Virus record (IMG/VR): IMGVR_UViG_3300006875_001953
Location: 1-28,633 of that record
DNA length: 28,633 bases
Direction: 5' to 3' (one strand)
Source of the DNA: a virus
Below the pieces are notes generated by a model that was not told the origin of the DNA, ran no database searches, and saw only the letters and a list, made by a program, of their open reading frames with translations. This document shows positions 7,213 through 15,548 of the stretch, piece after piece. The position numbers were made by a program, and so were the translations under genes. How positions within the stretch are numbered: the first letter of the stretch is position 1; the number at the start of each line of letters is the position of its first letter.

Positions 7213-7644
7213 TTACAAGTCTTTCGGCAATTCGCCGCGCTCGATTAGCTTTTTCTTGTTTGCCTGATGACCTTCCTGAACGAGTTCTTTATTCTCGCCT
7301 TGATAAGGAACCGCATAGTTATTCTCGATTAGCCATTTATTGACATTAGTGCCGTCATCTAAAATAAACTCGCCGAGAATACGGCCAAACTTATCGTCGT
7401 TGCCATCATCCCGTTGCGTATTAATCTTGACCCAAGATCCAATAGGTAGCTTTTCGCCTAATTTCTTTTTAGAAAGTGTGCCGCGTACTTTTTCTTCCTT
7501 ATCGGCTGTGCGCGATTCAGGAGTATCCACTCCCAGCATACGAACTCGCTGATTTGCGAGCACAATATTGAAGCCTAAATCCAGATCGATATCGACTGTG
7601 TCACCATCGAGGACCTTATTGATTCTGCATTTGTATTGGTACAT
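7213..7644 (-). CDS. Staphylococcal-type (thermonuclease) nuclease
   Basis: Ca-dependent DNA/RNA endonuclease family. In 143 residues, all catalytic elements of staphylococcal nuclease are visible, by coincidence almost at the same numbers: VLDGDTVDIDLDLGF (11-25), Arg35 in RVRMLGVDTPE, Glu43, and Arg88 in KFGRILGEF. The C-terminal helix region WLIENNYAVPY is also typical. There is no signal peptide, so it acts in the cell or in the virion. It follows the tape measure by 3 bases at the end of the minus-strand tail operon, so it is probably expressed late. Host DNA breakdown, or work on packaged or injected DNA, are possible jobs. Confidence 0.9.
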   Translation of the reverse strand: MYQYKCRINKVLDGDTVDIDLDLGFNIVLANQRVRMLGVDTPESRTADKEEKVRGTLSKKKLGEKLPIGSWVKINTQRDDGNDDKFGRILGEFILDDGTNVNKWLIENNYAVPYQGENKELVQEGHQANKKKLIERGELPKDL

Positions 7645-7647
7645 AGA

Positions 7648-9915
7648 TTATATTCCGTAAGGTGATGCTTTGAAGATCATTCCAGTTCTATCAGGAATTG
7701 ACAGACCACCGCCGTAAGTAACAGACTGATTGTTGTTCGTTACGTTGGTGCGGCTACTTGCATCTACAACTGATGTATTATTTGCGACACTTGCAGCATC
7801 CTTCATCGCCTGAGTTGATTGAGACGTTTCATTTAAAGAAGCACCAGTTACATTAGCCATCGGTGTAATGCTTTCCATTGCCAAGCGCTTATCAAGTGCA
7901 GTTGTTGGCTTAAGAGTGCTCGCATATGCATCGATACGATCTAGTGCTGGTGACCCGGATTCTGAAGGGGGAGTAGAAGATGTGGGCGTGGCAGCAGCAC
8001 TACCGCCGCCAGTAGCAGATGCCTCGCCGCCCAGGCCAAGCATATCCAATGCTTTCTTCGTGATATCAAATCCTACAAGTTTGCCAAGCGAATTGACTGG
8101 TGCAAGTAATACCTTTATCAATCCAGCGACAATACTCTTGAAGAAGTCTACGAAATCAATCTTACCAAGTAGCATATCCTTTAATCCCACGAATATGCCC
8201 TTGAAGCCTTCCCATATTTCTTTAAAGTAACCAGAGATTACATCGGTTATTTTACCGACTAATTCTGGCAACGTGTTCATAAAGAAATTGAATATACCTT
8301 CAAACATTTCTTGTCCGACGTTTATGAACTCTCTAATGAAGTCCTTAAAGTTGAACATATCAAGTTCTTTTTCAATTTCTTTAAATCCAAGTTTGCCTGC
8401 AATCCAGCTGATGATGCTTTTTGGTATATCGACCATCCATCCGATTAGGCCGTTGACTAATCCAACCATACCTTCTTTAAACTTGTCAGCGATGCTGCCT
8501 TCCTTTTCGCTGAATCCTTTAAAGAAGTCCCAGATTCCCATAATGATTGTTAGCGGCAAGAATAACTTGGCTGCAAGCTTGCCTAGGAATCCGAACACCT
8601 TTCCTGCAAGCGATCCGAGTGCTTCACCAAGCTGAAAGAATACCTTAAACGGCTTTGTGATCGCGCCCCAGATTCCTTTTAGAGTATTGAGCGCCTTGCC
8701 GATGATACCAATCGAATCACCAGCAGCATCAGCACCTTTTACCAGATTCTTGACAGCATCAAACTTCGATACGACATTTGCGAATGCTTCCTTAACTGGC
8801 TTAAATGCATCCGCCACGAACACGAAGAAATTCTTGACGCCATTGACTGCTGCAGTAATCTTATTTCCTACAGCGCTTAACAGTGTTCCAACTTTAGCAA
8901 CTGTCTTTTCGACAGCTCTAAAGATAGGATTGTCAGATATCAGACGAATATATGCTCTAAACTTAGAGATCATTCTTTCGCCTATCTTCATAAAGTTTTC
9001 AAACGCAGTAGCTATATTCTGCCCTAAGCGCGAAAACATCTCAGGCAATTTAGATGCAATCAGTCTAGGAAGCGCTTTGATTCTGCTCCATGCACGTTCA
9101 AACGCTTTCCCCAGATTATCGATGAATCTACCAATTGCTTGTCCGAGCTTTGACTCCTTCACCATCTTGATGATGTTTTTGAAGATAGCGCCTAGTTCCT
9201 TTGCAAGCCCAACGATGAAACCACTTGCTGCGCCTAGCAATCCAGCAACCCAACCCATCAGACCTAATTTACCATCCTCGTCTTTGTCCTTATCTTTCTT
9301 TTCTTTTTCTGGTGGACGCTTTGTTATTTTTTCAAGCAGCGCCATGAATTCGCGCCGATTTTCTTCTTCTTGCTGGCGACGAGCATCTGCTAATTCTAGA
9401 TCCTGCGCCATCATATTGGTAATGTGGCCGATGTCATTAGCGATTGCTATAATTGGTCGATAAAGATCAATTACTATCGAAGATGTAGCAAATGATGTAC
9501 CTTTGATTTCTATCAGGCAGTTCAATATTTCATTGAACATTCCAACGTCAAGTTTAGATTCTTCTTTTTCTTCGGCTGCTGGGGCTGCAACTGCTGCTGC
9601 AGCGATAGGAATAGTCGCTGGCCCAGTCTTTGCCAAGAAATCAGAAATGTCTGTCGCTATCATTTCAGTCCATGTTGAGACATCATTCATCTCAATACGG
9701 AGCTTTTCCATCTTTTCTGTTAACTTCTTTAACCCATCGCTTGATGACTTAGCTGCCTTGCTTGATGTTGCTGATCCGCGTTTCTTTGCAGCAGGCGCTT
9801 TCTTGGTTGATGCTGATCTTGTTTCTGCTACGGGCGCAGCGGTGGGCGTGATGGACGAGGCTGTAACATCGGGCGATGATACTATTGGATCTGTTGTCTT
9901 TTTTGTCTCGTCCAT
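7648..9915 (-). CDS. Tail length tape measure protein (gp29-like)
   Basis: Sets tail length and occupies the tube lumen until injection. 755 aa. Residues 1-60 are Ala/Ser/Thr/Lys-rich and low complexity. A helical part follows, with a charged run (KEKKDKDKDEDGK, about 205-217). From about 218 to 640 there are many amphipathic and hydrophobic helices (GLMGWVAGLLGAASGFIVGL, FLPLTIIMGIWDFF, GLIGWMVDIPKSIISWI). The C-terminal 110 residues are Ser/Thr/Asn-rich. This composition and the position right after gp26/gp51-type genes mark a tape measure. At the usual 0.15 nm per residue, the tail would be about 110 nm. Sequence similarity to T4 gp29 (590 aa) is not obvious by eye. Start ATG is 6 bases after the upstream stop. 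Confidence 0.82.
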   Translation of the reverse strand: MDETKKTTDPIVSSPDVTASSITPTAAPVAETRSASTKKAPAAKKRGSATSSKAAKSSSDGLKKLTEKMEKLRIEMNDVSTWTEMIATDISDFLAKTGPATIPIAAAAVAAPAAEEKEESKLDVGMFNEILNCLIEIKGTSFATSSIVIDLYRPIIAIANDIGHITNMMAQDLELADARRQQEEENRREFMALLEKITKRPPEKEKKDKDKDEDGKLGLMGWVAGLLGAASGFIVGLAKELGAIFKNIIKMVKESKLGQAIGRFIDNLGKAFERAWSRIKALPRLIASKLPEMFSRLGQNIATAFENFMKIGERMISKFRAYIRLISDNPIFRAVEKTVAKVGTLLSAVGNKITAAVNGVKNFFVFVADAFKPVKEAFANVVSKFDAVKNLVKGADAAGDSIGIIGKALNTLKGIWGAITKPFKVFFQLGEALGSLAGKVFGFLGKLAAKLFLPLTIIMGIWDFFKGFSEKEGSIADKFKEGMVGLVNGLIGWMVDIPKSIISWIAGKLGFKEIEKELDMFNFKDFIREFINVGQEMFEGIFNFFMNTLPELVGKITDVISGYFKEIWEGFKGIFVGLKDMLLGKIDFVDFFKSIVAGLIKVLLAPVNSLGKLVGFDITKKALDMLGLGGEASATGGGSAAATPTSSTPPSESGSPALDRIDAYASTLKPTTALDKRLAMESITPMANVTGASLNETSQSTQAMKDAASVANNTSVVDASSRTNVTNNNQSVTYGGGLSIPDRTGMIFKASPYGI

Positions 9916-9921
9916 CGTAGT

Positions 9922-10113
9922 TTACTTTTTAGAATTGAGCTTTTGAATTCTTTCGTTTTCCTGCTTAACGTGTTCCGATAGCAGGTGAACGTAGATTTCC
10001 CTCTCCCATGGCAGCATATCCTCAAGCTCAGTTAAACTGTAGTGGTGATGCTGCATCATTGCAAAATTAGTCTGATAGTAGTTCAGAAGATTGTCGTGAG
10101 AGAGGGCTAGTTG
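9922..10113 (-). CDS. gp51-like chaperone segment, probably made by -1 frameshift from gp26
   Basis: A 63-codon open frame lies between gp26 and the tape measure. It reads QLALSHDN...NFAMMQHHHYSL, then TELEDMLPWEREIYVHLL, and ends in a charged helix (KQENERIQKLNSKK). The HHY...PWERE block resembles the small gp51-type hub assembly protein of cyanophage-like myoviruses and the T segment of tail-assembly chaperones. No ATG, GTG or TTG precedes it in frame from the last stop (10138-10140) until ATGATG at 10054-10059, which has no Shine-Dalgarno and would cut the segment to 45 residues. A slippery TTTTTTC at 10113-10119 leads into exactly this frame. The coordinates give the part after the slip; the fusion with gp26 would be 295 aa. 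Confidence 0.7.
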   Translation of the reverse strand, partial: QLALSHDNLLNYYQTNFAMMQHHHYSLTELEDMLPWEREIYVHLLSEHVKQENERIQKLNSKK

Positions 10114-10808
10114 AAAAAATTCTGCAAACCTGAGATCTCAAATTCGTTTTCCTTCTTGCACTTTTCGCATTTGAACTTGATGTCCATTTGTAGCTTAGGC
10201 ATGCTGGAAATGAATTCCTGAATCTTCAGAAATTGTGCCTGATTCAGCGAGTCTACGAATTCAGCAAGTTCTTCACGCTTATGCTCTGCTGCGTGATATA
10301 CTCCGTCCTTATCGTAGATCGTATCGATACAAGCAATAATGACACTAGTGATTGTTTCTGGTGTAAGCTTTCCATCTTGGTCAGAAAGGAAATCAGCCTT
10401 TGGATAGTTCAGCGTGATACCGACTTCGTCATTTAGCTGAATCTTCTTTTCGACCTTTTCAGGAAACAGCACTTGTACCTCATCGAGATTGATCTCAATC
10501 TTATTGACGGCCTCACAGTGTTTGCACTTGATGCCCACACGAGAAACTTCACCAACGGACTTAGAACGCAACTTGAGGAACAGGTATTCCAGATCAAACG
10601 TGCAAAGCTTGTCAGGATCAATTTTATTGAAAGTGCAAGAAGAAACAATGTCCTTCATTGCAGTCATGATCTGCGAGTTATTCTTTGACTCGAGCGCGAT
10701 CATAAGTATCTTCTCTTCCTTGACCAGATAAGGACGGTACATAACCGTCTTTCCGGTTGACGGAATCTTCACTTCATACTTTGGTATATCGATTTTTGGT
10801 AATGCCAT
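10107..10808 (-). CDS. 26: gp26-family baseplate hub / tail-assembly protein
   Basis: Belongs by pattern to the T4 gp26 baseplate-hub family (Pfam T4 baseplate protein). 233 aa against 208 in T4. It begins LPKIDIPKYEVKIPSTGKTVMYRPYLVKEEKIL, the family's usual opening. Two Cys-x2-Cys pairs (Cys95/Cys98 and Cys214/Cys217) form a probable zinc ribbon. The C-terminus ISGLQNFFN ends on a slippery run. Its place directly before a gp51-like frame and the tape measure is the place of the G and GT chaperones in lambda-like phages, so it may load the tape measure and not remain in the virion. No clear Shine-Dalgarno precedes the ATG. Confidence 0.82.
   Translation of the reverse strand: MALPKIDIPKYEVKIPSTGKTVMYRPYLVKEEKILMIALESKNNSQIMTAMKDIVSSCTFNKIDPDKLCTFDLEYLFLKLRSKSVGEVSRVGIKCKHCEAVNKIEINLDEVQVLFPEKVEKKIQLNDEVGITLNYPKADFLSDQDGKLTPETITSVIIACIDTIYDKDGVYHAAEHKREELAEFVDSLNQAQFLKIQEFISSMPKLQMDIKFKCEKCKKENEFEISGLQNFFN
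10113..10119 (-). other. -1 ribosomal frameshift site (T TTT TTC)
   Basis: On the minus strand the last gp26 codons are CAG AAT TTT TTC AAC TAG. The heptamer T TTT TTC is in the phase needed for -1 slippage (X XXY YYZ), and the stop codon is two codons later. After slipping, CAA CTA GCC follows and stays open for 63 codons. No strong downstream stem is obvious by eye. Confidence 0.65.
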
Positions 10809-10826: not shown

Positions 10827-11348
10827 TCAATTCACTTCATAATCAGTAAATGCCATGGTAACTGTCATTTTCTGCACTGAATTCTCTGCAGCATTATCGA
10901 AGCCGATTGAGCTTACAGTAATTGGAAATGCTTCTTTTAGCTTTACTTCGTAAACAATAGAATTTTCTTTGTCGAGTTGCTGAATGATGATATCTGTTGC
11001 ATAATCATTCTTATATGCTACTCTATACCGATTCATGTCTAATACAGTATCAAGCCATGATTCAAATATTCTTTTCATCGAATATTGATTTGTTAGCAAG
11101 AACGTAAATACCACTTCCTCGTTCATATAACCAGTTGGCATTTTTTCTGTTTGCCGCAATAATCCGTAATCAGCAGTCAGTATTTGCTTTCCTGGGAAAC
11201 TTGCATTTTCACAAAGGATAGTAAATTCTTGGGCAATCGAATTGATATTCCTCGGCGGAGTCATTATGACGTTAAACCGATTCGTGACAGCAAGACCGTT
11301 TCCTCGCGAAATAGCTGCCTTTAAATCTTCTATTGAATTCAGCGCCAT
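10827..11348 (-). CDS. Tail tube family protein (gp19-like)
   Basis: 173 aa, close to T4 gp19 (163 aa), and built like a contractile-tail tube subunit. Visible are FNVIMTPP, LCENASFPGKQI, a YGLLRQTEKMPTGYMNEEVVFTF segment, and the run W-x3-VLDMNRYRVAYKNDYATDIII ending in beta strands (QKMTVTMAFTDYEVN). In gp19 proteins these are the opening strand, the PG loop, the beta meander and the inner sheet. It might be the main tube protein or a tube paralogue at the baseplate end (gp54/gp48 side), since it sits with gp26 and the tape measure and no sheath gene is nearby. It starts 2 bases after the upstream stop. Confidence 0.72.
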   Translation of the reverse strand: MALNSIEDLKAAISRGNGLAVTNRFNVIMTPPRNINSIAQEFTILCENASFPGKQILTADYGLLRQTEKMPTGYMNEEVVFTFLLTNQYSMKRIFESWLDTVLDMNRYRVAYKNDYATDIIIQQLDKENSIVYEVKLKEAFPITVSSIGFDNAAENSVQKMTVTMAFTDYEVN

Positions 11349-13306: not shown

Positions 13307-14152
13307 ATGTCATTCTTCAGACAGTTTCCTAAAACTCAGTACGACTTCTTTAATCGAGGAGTCAACTACGAGATTACCGACTTCTTCAGATACGTCACCG
13401 GAGATATTAAATTGTTAGATGACGTTTCAGTGTATTCGTATTATAGAGTTCAAAATGGTGAACGGCCTGATGTAGTATCAATGAAGCTGTATGGAACGCC
13501 GGAATATTATTGGACATTCTTTGTCATCAACGACCATTTAAAGTGTGGAATAGCAACTTGGCCATTGTCTCCAGAAGCATTTGAAGATTATATGAAAGAA
13601 GAATATGATGGCTATGCTATTAGTTCTAAGGTGAATGTTAGAGTAAATGAAGACGGCGAGCGCCTTGAGACTACAACACTTGCAGATGAATTCCCCATTG
13701 GCACGCCAGTGATTGCAACTCACGTACCTGAAGGAACTAATACAAGCATCACAACTTCAACTGGTGGAGTAGTGTATGCTAGAAATCCTCAATTATATCA
13801 GCTTATAATTAAAGGAGATATAGTAAAAACTTCGGGATCGCATCTAACGCCATTTGTAGCAACCGGCAAGATTAAGAGTGATAAAAACGAAATGTCAATT
13901 GAGCAATGGACCGAATTTAGAAATGCGGTTCATCATTACGAAGATTCAGAAGGTAATTTGACATACGATCCATATTATTTTGACCCAGACGAAACGGAAG
14001 GAAAAGTAGAAAACTTAGGGCCTCTTACTGCTATTTCTAACTATGAATATGAGAGTAATCTGAATGATGCGCGTGCTGACATTAGAATTATTAAGCCATC
14101 GCTCATCAATCAGTTTGCGCACCAATATCGCACTCTGATCAATGCTAACTAA
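13307..14152 (+). CDS. 53: Baseplate wedge protein gp53
   Basis: A wedge subunit that locks neighbouring wedges around the hub. The N-terminal half matches T4 gp53 in layout: FPKTQYDFF, then EITDFFRYV, then YSYYRVQNGERPDVVSMKLYGTPEYYWTFFVIND, comparable with T4 YYIKGSPRPEELANAIYGNPQLYWVLLMCND. At 281 aa it is longer than T4 gp53 (196 aa). The extra length is a beta-rich, Thr/Gly-rich insert of about residues 110-200, which looks like a small LysM- or Ig-like module. The C-terminus (ADIRIIKPSLINQFAHQYRTLI) is the usual closing strand and helix. The stop overlaps the next start by 11 bases. Confidence 0.85.
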   Translation: MSFFRQFPKTQYDFFNRGVNYEITDFFRYVTGDIKLLDDVSVYSYYRVQNGERPDVVSMKLYGTPEYYWTFFVINDHLKCGIATWPLSPEAFEDYMKEEYDGYAISSKVNVRVNEDGERLETTTLADEFPIGTPVIATHVPEGTNTSITTSTGGVVYARNPQLYQLIIKGDIVKTSGSHLTPFVATGKIKSDKNEMSIEQWTEFRNAVHHYEDSEGNLTYDPYYFDPDETEGKVENLGPLTAISNYEYESNLNDARADIRIIKPSLINQFAHQYRTLINAN

Positions 14153-15548
14153 TGTCAATCTTTCTCCTGGTAGGTCAGCAGGTGTTAATCCTGCAGCTTA
14201 TCGGATCAATAAGATTATACTAACTAATCACGGCGGAAGAGAAGTAGATATTGCTGGTTTAGTTACAGATTTTTTCATCACCGAAAGCATATATTCTCCA
14301 TTTCTGACACTTGAAATGAATGTCAGAGATGATGTTAACTTCATTGAGGAATATCAGATATCTGGGCAAGAAAAGATTCTAGTATCATTCTCGAAGAACG
14401 AATATCAGGAAGATATTTTTCCTGAACTTAGCACATTAGATGAAGTTACAATTGAGCACACCTTTGTAGCAACTGAGTATCCAGTATATGCAAAGGCATC
14501 TAATAACCGTTCTCAGGCATTTGTAATTCGTGGTGTATCTGTCCATGCATATCTAGCCAAGTTCAAAAAGATATCTCGTGCATATAATGATACTGCAGTT
14601 AATATTATTAAAAACATTCTAATAGACGATCTGGGCTATGATGAGAGCAAGATAATTGTATCGAGTGCAGCATCTCCGCAGATGCGTGTCATTATTCCAT
14701 ATCTTGATCCACTGAGCGCAATTGCATGGATATTGCGTCGTAGCTTTGATGAGAATTCTGCGCCAATTTTTTGCTACGAAACACTATCAGATAAGCTAAT
14801 GATACAGTCATACTCTGACTTTGTATCTTCAGCAAATAGTCCACATCGTGAGTATCGAGAGGGTAAGTTCTTCACGAATGAACTTATCGATGACTATACT
14901 CAGTCTTATCTGCAGATGTCCTCGCGCATTCTAAATATATCATCAAATATACAGCTTTCGAAGTTTGTGCCAGGATCTCAGGGCGCATACTCCTCAAAGA
15001 CGCGCTATACTGACATTGCAAAGAAAACATACCGAGATGATATCTTCGATTACGTCGGCGAGTTTGACTCGATGGTTTGGATTGATAGGGGCAAATCAAT
15101 TTCCACGCAATTTAAGCTAAGCGAAAACGAGCGATCATTGAATGAGTATGAAGAAGCTAAGGTAAACTTTGTTTCGCTGAATACTCTTGCGTTTGACGAA
15201 GAAAGCGGTGAATACAATTATCATCAGCCAACTGTCGGTAATGTGTTAAACAAAGCCGGATCTTATATCGAGAATCTTGATTCTATCATACACGAGCTGC
15301 AGTTATATGGTGACGCACTAATGCGCTCGGGCAAGTGTGTAAATCTTCAGCTAGTAAAAGCACAGGATCCAGATGTAGAAATGCGCGAGGATAAAGCTCG
15401 TGGGAGTCAATCAAAGGATGAGTTTCTATCTGGGCGTTACATTGTTAGCGGAATCAAACATTCGTTTGGCAATGAGTACTATATGCAGATTAGAGTAAAG
15501 AAGGATACCTTCTCTTATATTTTTGAAGAATACGATGAATACGATTGA
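14142..15548 (+). CDS. 27: Baseplate hub protein gp27-like
   Basis: Forms the trimeric ring that adapts the sixfold tube to the threefold spike. 468 aa against 391 in T4. Visible blocks are an N-terminal beta domain (YRINKIILTNHGGREVDIAGLV), TDFFITESIYSPFLTLEMNVRD, a second tube-like domain with IIPYLDPLSAIAWILRRSF, and a C-terminal part ending GRYIVSGIKHSFGNEYYMQIRVKKDTF. The final strand pair is shared with gpD/VgrG-type hubs. It starts inside the end of gp53 and overlaps the spike gene, so hub and spike are probably translated together. No Shine-Dalgarno is visible. Confidence 0.8.
   Translation: MLTNVNLSPGRSAGVNPAAYRINKIILTNHGGREVDIAGLVTDFFITESIYSPFLTLEMNVRDDVNFIEEYQISGQEKILVSFSKNEYQEDIFPELSTLDEVTIEHTFVATEYPVYAKASNNRSQAFVIRGVSVHAYLAKFKKISRAYNDTAVNIIKNILIDDLGYDESKIIVSSAASPQMRVIIPYLDPLSAIAWILRRSFDENSAPIFCYETLSDKLMIQSYSDFVSSANSPHREYREGKFFTNELIDDYTQSYLQMSSRILNISSNIQLSKFVPGSQGAYSSKTRYTDIAKKTYRDDIFDYVGEFDSMVWIDRGKSISTQFKLSENERSLNEYEEAKVNFVSLNTLAFDEESGEYNYHQPTVGNVLNKAGSYIENLDSIIHELQLYGDALMRSGKCVNLQLVKAQDPDVEMREDKARGSQSKDEFLSGRYIVSGIKHSFGNEYYMQIRVKKDTFSYIFEEYDEYD

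Follow-up and report, generated by a model that had tools for sequence, protein, structure and literature searches.

A candidate -1 frameshift joining gp26 to the C-terminal domain of gp51 in an uncultured T4-type phage

We propose that gp26 and its fusion gp26-51 are the short and the long tail assembly chaperone of a T4-type phage, very probably produced, as with G and GT of phage lambda, through a -1 slip at the heptamer T TTT TTC. The DNA analyzed, here called the window, is the whole 28,633-nucleotide stretch of the viral record IMGVR_UViG_3300006875_001953. While decoding T TTT TTC at 10119-10113, a minority of ribosomes would slip one base back, miss the TAG that lies one codon on and read 63 codons in the -1 frame; the product would be a long chaperone of 295 aa whose C-terminal domain is helical. 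On the model of lambda G/GT, the short form would coat the tape measure protein, whose gene follows, and the long form would deliver tail tube subunits to that protein. The original prediction had described gp26 and gp26-51 as the T4-superfamily counterparts of G and GT; the signal, its conservation, the selection on the -1 frame and the homology set out below speak for this, while slippage, its rate, the function in the tail and the binding partners of both products are what we infer.

The proposed slip site and its surroundings in the window

The features concerned are the following.

10827-11348, minus strand: tail tube-like protein, directly upstream of gp26 (phrog_45, tail tube, E 1.4e-34)
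10107-10808, minus strand: gp26-like short form (TAC-N), an ORF of 233 aa (PF12322, E 7.6e-63; phrog_150, baseplate hub, E 1.1e-68)
10113-10119, minus strand: slippery heptamer T TTT TTC, in 0-frame phase AAT TTT TTC, kept as T TTT TTN in 192 of 194 loci
10107-10109, minus strand: 0-frame stop TAG, one codon (AAC) past the heptamer
9922-10113, minus strand: -1 frame extension (gp51 C-terminal domain, TAC-C), 63 codons from CAA at 10113 plus the stop TAA (phrog_634, E 3.4e-26)
10054-10059, minus strand: first two ATGs of the -1 frame (extension residues 19 and 20), giving a product of at most 45 aa, with no Shine-Dalgarno-like motif flagged
7648-9915, minus strand: tape measure protein of 755 aa, adjoining the extension on its 3' side, 6 bases on (PHROG matches)

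On the minus strand gp26 ends with the codons CAG (10124), AAT (10121), TTT (10118), TTC (10115), AAC (10112) and TAG (10109-10107), and this codon listing places the heptamer, in its -1 phase, to the base where it had been predicted. The gp26 product, which contains two CxxC pairs, scored 212.6 bits against PF12322 (T4_baseplate), for which the curated Pfam cut-off is 24.5, and is thus a member of that family. Among 27 ORFs of the window (7642 codons), hand-picked as likely genes, an in-frame pattern of the T TTT TTN type occurs twice, i.e., at the end of gp26 and, as GAT TTT TTC at 14268-14276 on the plus strand, at codon 43 of the ORF 14142-15548.

In the -1 frame, no stop interrupts the stretch between TGA (10140-10138) and TAA (9924-9922). 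The earliest ATG, GTG or TTG in it is the ATG at 10059, with the ATG at 10056 immediately next. The listing agrees with the original prediction on the absence of these start codons between the stop at 10138-10140 and 10059, as well as on a frame of 63 codons whose stop lies 6 bases 5' of the tape-measure ATG. Read from the slip, the extension is a peptide of 63 residues (QLALSHDNLL...LNSKK), which together with 232 residues of gp26 makes a fusion of 295 aa, and the lengths foreseen for the two forms, 233 and 295 aa, hold. The extension matched positions 58-117 of the 121-position profile of phrog_634 (baseplate hub assembly catalyst, gp51 family). A second match (E 1.7e-6) lies at the C-terminal end of phrog_150, whose profile exceeds gp26 in length.

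As expected of a chaperone of the G/GT kind, gp26 lies directly 5' of the tape measure gene, which matched phrog_1272, phrog_305, phrog_58 and phrog_4200, all of them tail length tape measure families, with E-values from 1.9e-13 to 5e-9. Further neighbors are of T4 type and include a DNA end protector, a head closure protein, gp5-like and gp6-like proteins, gp32 and gp59. Directly after the tape measure gene, at 7213-7644 on the minus strand, a staphylococcal nuclease-like protein is encoded (PF00565, E 1e-9). At the edge of the window, the plus-strand ORF 56-1213 matches the adenylate/guanylate cyclase catalytic domain PF00211 (E 9.9e-21) and the uncharacterised phage family phrog_35576 (E 1.2e-123), and represents a class III nucleotidyl cyclase in a T4-type phage. 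Since PF12322 matched only once in the 28,633-base record, the T4 pattern, in which the long form is a complete gene of its own, was not found in it; the record may be a fragment, and a second copy could lie elsewhere.

Conservation of the heptamer and selection on the -1 frame

Relatives were taken from a scan of viral_contigs (the best 80 of 333), from further scans with gp26 of Cr30, HTVC008M, phi-Grn1, BUCT608 and S-PM2 (97 more loci) and from named phage records (21 more loci). With L081, a second copy of the window, left out, 199 sequences (198 loci and the window) were examined, and the end of gp26 could be located in 194. Of the remaining five, L088 and L096 (T4 and Mineola) have their match on the opposite strand, L095 and L097 lacked a match at E 1e-5, and the sequence of L114 is cut short. 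The 194 include the window and its copies of 98-100% identity (L001-L009), and later counts use representatives. Among 654 matching phage records, all of them below 60%, the best-ranked has 42.8% identity over gp26, with very near records possibly lying outside the search.

Aligning the gp26-gp51 junction across relatives, the check that had been suggested for the prediction, revealed an in-phase T TTT TTN before the gp26 stop in 192 of the 194 loci, the window and its near copies counted, and two loci without it. The heptamer is TTTTTTC in 132 loci, TTTTTTT in 58 and TTTTTTG in 2, and the 0-frame stop follows after one codon in 172, directly in 19 and after eight codons in a single locus. The extension lies in the -1 frame in 79 of the best 80 of 333 viral_contigs relatives, L010 ending too early to match, and the same offset was present in 16 of the 18 named phage records read. 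A conserved in-phase slippery site near the 3' end followed by an open extension in the shifted frame, as found here, is a trait of the G/GT kind.

After the two loci without a heptamer had been dropped, the other 192 were clustered, which left 92 representatives at a threshold of 90% identity and 52 at 70%. The site was defined by its amino acids as the last FF or FL near the end of gp26, a rule that in L089 picks the pair one codon later. At this site the first Phe codon is TTT in all 52 representatives at 70% identity, compared with 317 TTT and 188 TTC for Phe elsewhere in the same genes, and the codon preceding the site, whether it encodes Ser, Asn, Asp or Phe, ends in T in all 52. Internal FF pairs of these genes are written TTTTTTC in just 1 of 31 cases. 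Under independence, 52 consecutive TTT codons have a chance of ~3e-11 by hand calculation, the loci being independent only in part.

Selection was measured over extension codons 4-18, situated between the gp26 stop and the ATG of residue 19 or 20. Over 42 disjoint nearest pairs, drawn from 89 of the 92 representatives at 90% identity, pN/pS was 0.174 in the -1 frame versus 1.31 and 1.66 in the other two. In 44 of these 89, among them the window, no ATG, GTG or TTG occurs up to and including residue 17; here pN/pS was 0.167 versus 1.60 and 1.86 (21 pairs), so that the lack of start codons noted in the prediction extends to relatives in which the residues are still under selection. At 70% identity, 51 representatives had a long enough extension; 28 of them lack ATG, GTG and TTG up to and including residue 14, and 38 lack an ATG in this range, while 23 have a start codon in it, three of these with a Shine-Dalgarno-like motif near one. 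As about half of the representatives, the window among them, lack an early start and nevertheless conserve the early residues, these residues are hardly reachable except from gp26. Judged by sequence, translation in the -1 frame is already under way ahead of its first ATG.

The strongest rival reading takes the gp51-like frame as a separate small gene of ~45 residues that begins at the ATG at 10059 or 10056, the T run being incidental. Of the 51 representatives, 27 do have an ATG at extension residue 19 and 33 have one at residue 20, and S-RSM4, Melnitz-3, HTVC008M and Mosig have gp51 annotated from an ATG at one of these residues. Such a start, however, does not account for the purifying selection on codons 4-18, which persists in the 44 representatives without an earlier start, and it leaves the fixed heptamer unexplained. 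Moreover, the AlphaFold model of the extension shows a single helix over residues 2-23 (mean pLDDT 81.8) that would be truncated if translation began at residue 19, and the ATGs of the window carry no flagged Shine-Dalgarno-like motif. A separate gene is therefore very unlikely. For phages of the window's kind, an internal gp51 start was rejected because the codons upstream of it are under selection also in genomes that lack any earlier start codon; for the remaining 45 of the 89 representatives the sequence would permit an early start.

Possible stimulators and predicted structures

For a slip by ribosomes, an upstream Shine-Dalgarno-like motif is a known stimulator. Pairing with the anti-Shine-Dalgarno was stronger than in synonymous shuffles in 36 of the 51 representatives (Wilcoxon p 2.5e-4), whereas control stretches went the opposite way (51/153). 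Of 29 loci that carry a motif within 30 nt upstream of the heptamer, 25 have it at a distance of 8-10 nt. Downstream folding reached a mean z of -1.36 in the 51 representatives versus -0.36 in one random gp26 window each. Both stimulators are enriched in the family, and we claim neither for the window, where downstream RNA structure was not notable (z -0.4) and the upstream pairing, -3.2 kcal/mol against a shuffled mean of -2.75 kcal/mol, did not go beyond what the peptide gives. With neither stimulator, the slip in the window would depend solely on the heptamer and the stop close by, and its rate is likely to be low.

The motif at 8-10 nt upstream in some relatives also bears on whether it is RNA polymerase, rather than the ribosome, that slips on the T run, which would yield the same fusion protein. 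The site is indeed a homopolymer run, with 6 to 8 T in the 52 representatives. Against this, 36 of the 52 have only 6 T, and runs known for efficient polymerase slippage are longer; in addition, the phase of the heptamer is kept exactly, two loci have T TTT TTG, and a Shine-Dalgarno-like motif stimulates ribosomes. Polymerase slippage, too, is very unlikely. As for a sequencing or assembly error or a decayed gene, homopolymer runs are error-prone and locus L119 is one T short of its close relative L118, but the -1 offset and the heptamer, conserved across the loci counted above, refute such an origin of the split frame.

With regard to a chaperone fold, the structure of gp26 was predicted with confidence (pLDDT 92.6, pTM 0.85). 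When 993 solved chains were re-aligned to this model, the best were 3fgx (Z 8.1), 2ob9 (Z 7.3) and 3klu (YqbN; Z 6.8), with the next at Z 2.8, values under 8 being, by the tool's own caution, ones that may reflect a common arrangement. We take 3fgx and YqbN to be relatives of the PBSX-type chaperone. The chain 2ob9 is the tail assembly chaperone of HK97; residues 1-85 of the gp26 model align with it (84 residues, rmsd 4.1) at 10% identity, and the remainder of gp26 is uncovered. With Foldseek alone, the chaperone fold was not significant (2ob9, E 1.5), and a sequence search of solved structures with gp26 gave a best E of 0.3. The resemblance to a known tail assembly chaperone is suggestive at the level of a model. 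For the extension, a fold search in BFVD returned at best the baseplate hub assembly catalyst of Acinetobacter phage ZZ1 (E 0.61).

Departures from the site and comparison with known systems

In T4, genes 26 and 51 are separate, as the original prediction had stated, and lie on opposite strands. Both products match PF12322 (E 8.8e-64 for gp26 and 3.9e-52 for gp51), and the profile of the fusion aligned with T4-type gp51 (T4, Aes508 and Mineola) over template positions 6-252 of 252 (hhalign probability 99.5, E 4.2e-22), while the extension alone aligned with the C-terminal end of gp51 (probability 96.2, E 2.7e-9). Based on the PF12322 match and this near whole-length alignment, T4 gp51 seems to be the long form, gp26-like N-terminal part included, encoded by a gene of its own. 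The -1 frame that the original prediction called gp51-like corresponds only to the C-terminal part of T4 gp51, the whole of which is the long form. At the end of gp26, T4 has GAG TTC TTT and Klebsiella phage Mineola GAA TTC TTT, so EFF and a few residues are kept and the heptamer is absent; in Aes508 the FF is lost as well. The heptamer is absent where it is not needed, as expected of a slip signal, although three phages are a small sample. In Campylobacter phage CJLB-14 (L097:1856-2596), a single 246-aa protein in one frame has an N-terminal match to the gp26 profile and a C-terminal match to the gp51 profile, like T4 gp51.

Other departures occur among the relatives themselves. In L119 the run has one T fewer than in the close relatives L118 and L091 (Stenotrophomonas phage locus), and the missing T is either a natural change or a homopolymer sequencing error. 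Vibrio phage K364 (L098) has CTT TTT and a TAATGATG overlap, and its extension matched the extension profile weakly (E 0.0065 in a one-sequence search). Two Vibrio phages recorded as Ackermannviridae and related to K364 (L200 and L201) have a gp26 that ends much like that of K364, with CTT TTT and then CGN or GCG across the three, and Salmonella phage GG32, Klebsiella phage UPM 2146 and Dickeya phage PP35 (L202, L203 and L204; Ackermannviridae) end in ATT TTC ATT TAA. These six phages, five of them recorded as Ackermannviridae, have an open -1 extension without a standard in-phase heptamer. Furthermore, 11 of the 194 loci (L089, L090, L091, L092, L094, L098, L102, L103, L116, L117 and L118), several of which are near copies, have a stop-start overlap, i.e., an ATG in the -1 frame that shares the last base of the stop (TGATG or TAATG), and ten of them retain the heptamer. 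Coupled re-initiation at such an overlap could supply a free C-terminal domain as well.

It is possible, although we hold this only tentatively and with more doubt than conviction, that frameshifting is ancestral across the gp26 superfamily and that lineages left it by different roads. T4-type phages would have done so through gene duplication, into a short gp26 and a long gp51, with silent loss of the heptamer, the Campylobacter phage through an in-frame long form and the Ackermannviridae through an uncharacterised slip that needs no standard heptamer. Certain phages of Rhizobium, Caulobacter, Stenotrophomonas and Vibrio would have kept the heptamer and added a stop-start overlap.

The findings are of practical use for the annotation of phages with the slip site. 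In the annotation tables of 16 such named phages, gp26 and the extension are not marked as joined in any of their rows; the tables begin the extension at an internal start codon or at one that overlaps the stop, and ACG-2014e leaves it out. Cultured cyanophage and pelagiphage relatives make the slip directly testable.

Frameshifting reportedly appears conserved in several T4-like groups, with T4's own group using genes 26 and 51. Presumably, the T4-like TAC-N/TAC-NC genes belong to the same gene family as the window's gp26, and a 2016 review by Atkins and others treats the subject. According to that review (PMC5009743), long-tailed phages broadly conserve frameshifting of the G-T kind, T4 being the exception, and both the short and the long form of lambda G/GT work on the tape measure protein. 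The gap left by this exception is filled by a slip site in T4-type phages, but work of 2022 had already done so: PMC12846349 and PMC10885494 both cite Vladimirov, Gautam and Davidson (2022, Virology 566:9-15) on T4-like tail assembly chaperone genes, a paper whose title announces a mechanism other than frameshifting for T4-like phages. Citing it, PMC12846349 mentions polyT slip signals in TAC-N genes of T4-like phages, and PMC10885494 states that in some T4-like phages a short gene and a long fused one take the place of frameshifting. A T4 review (PMC3004832) lists gp26 and gp51 in a table as hub assembly chaperones, while its text holds that genetic studies support gp26 in the hub, a point against a pure chaperone role.

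T4 itself resembles the window in that both gp26 and gp51 match PF12322 and that gp51 corresponds to nearly the whole fusion; it differs in having separate genes on opposite strands, hence no joining frameshift, and a gene 26 without the heptamer. The lambda heptamer is G GGA AAG, whereas the window has T TTT TTC and a gp26 of 233 aa with two CxxC pairs. What lambda gpG/gpGT, as described in PMC5009743, and the window would have in common is that a short and a long form arise through a -1 slip where a gene ends. The T4-like TAC-N/TAC-NC genes (Vladimirov et al. 2022) share polyT slip signals with the window, going by the statement in PMC12846349. We know of no difference in kind between them and the window, an uncultured relative, and a slip-made chaperone pair in T4-like phages is accordingly not new in kind; the window adds an uncultured member to the known frameshifted chaperones.
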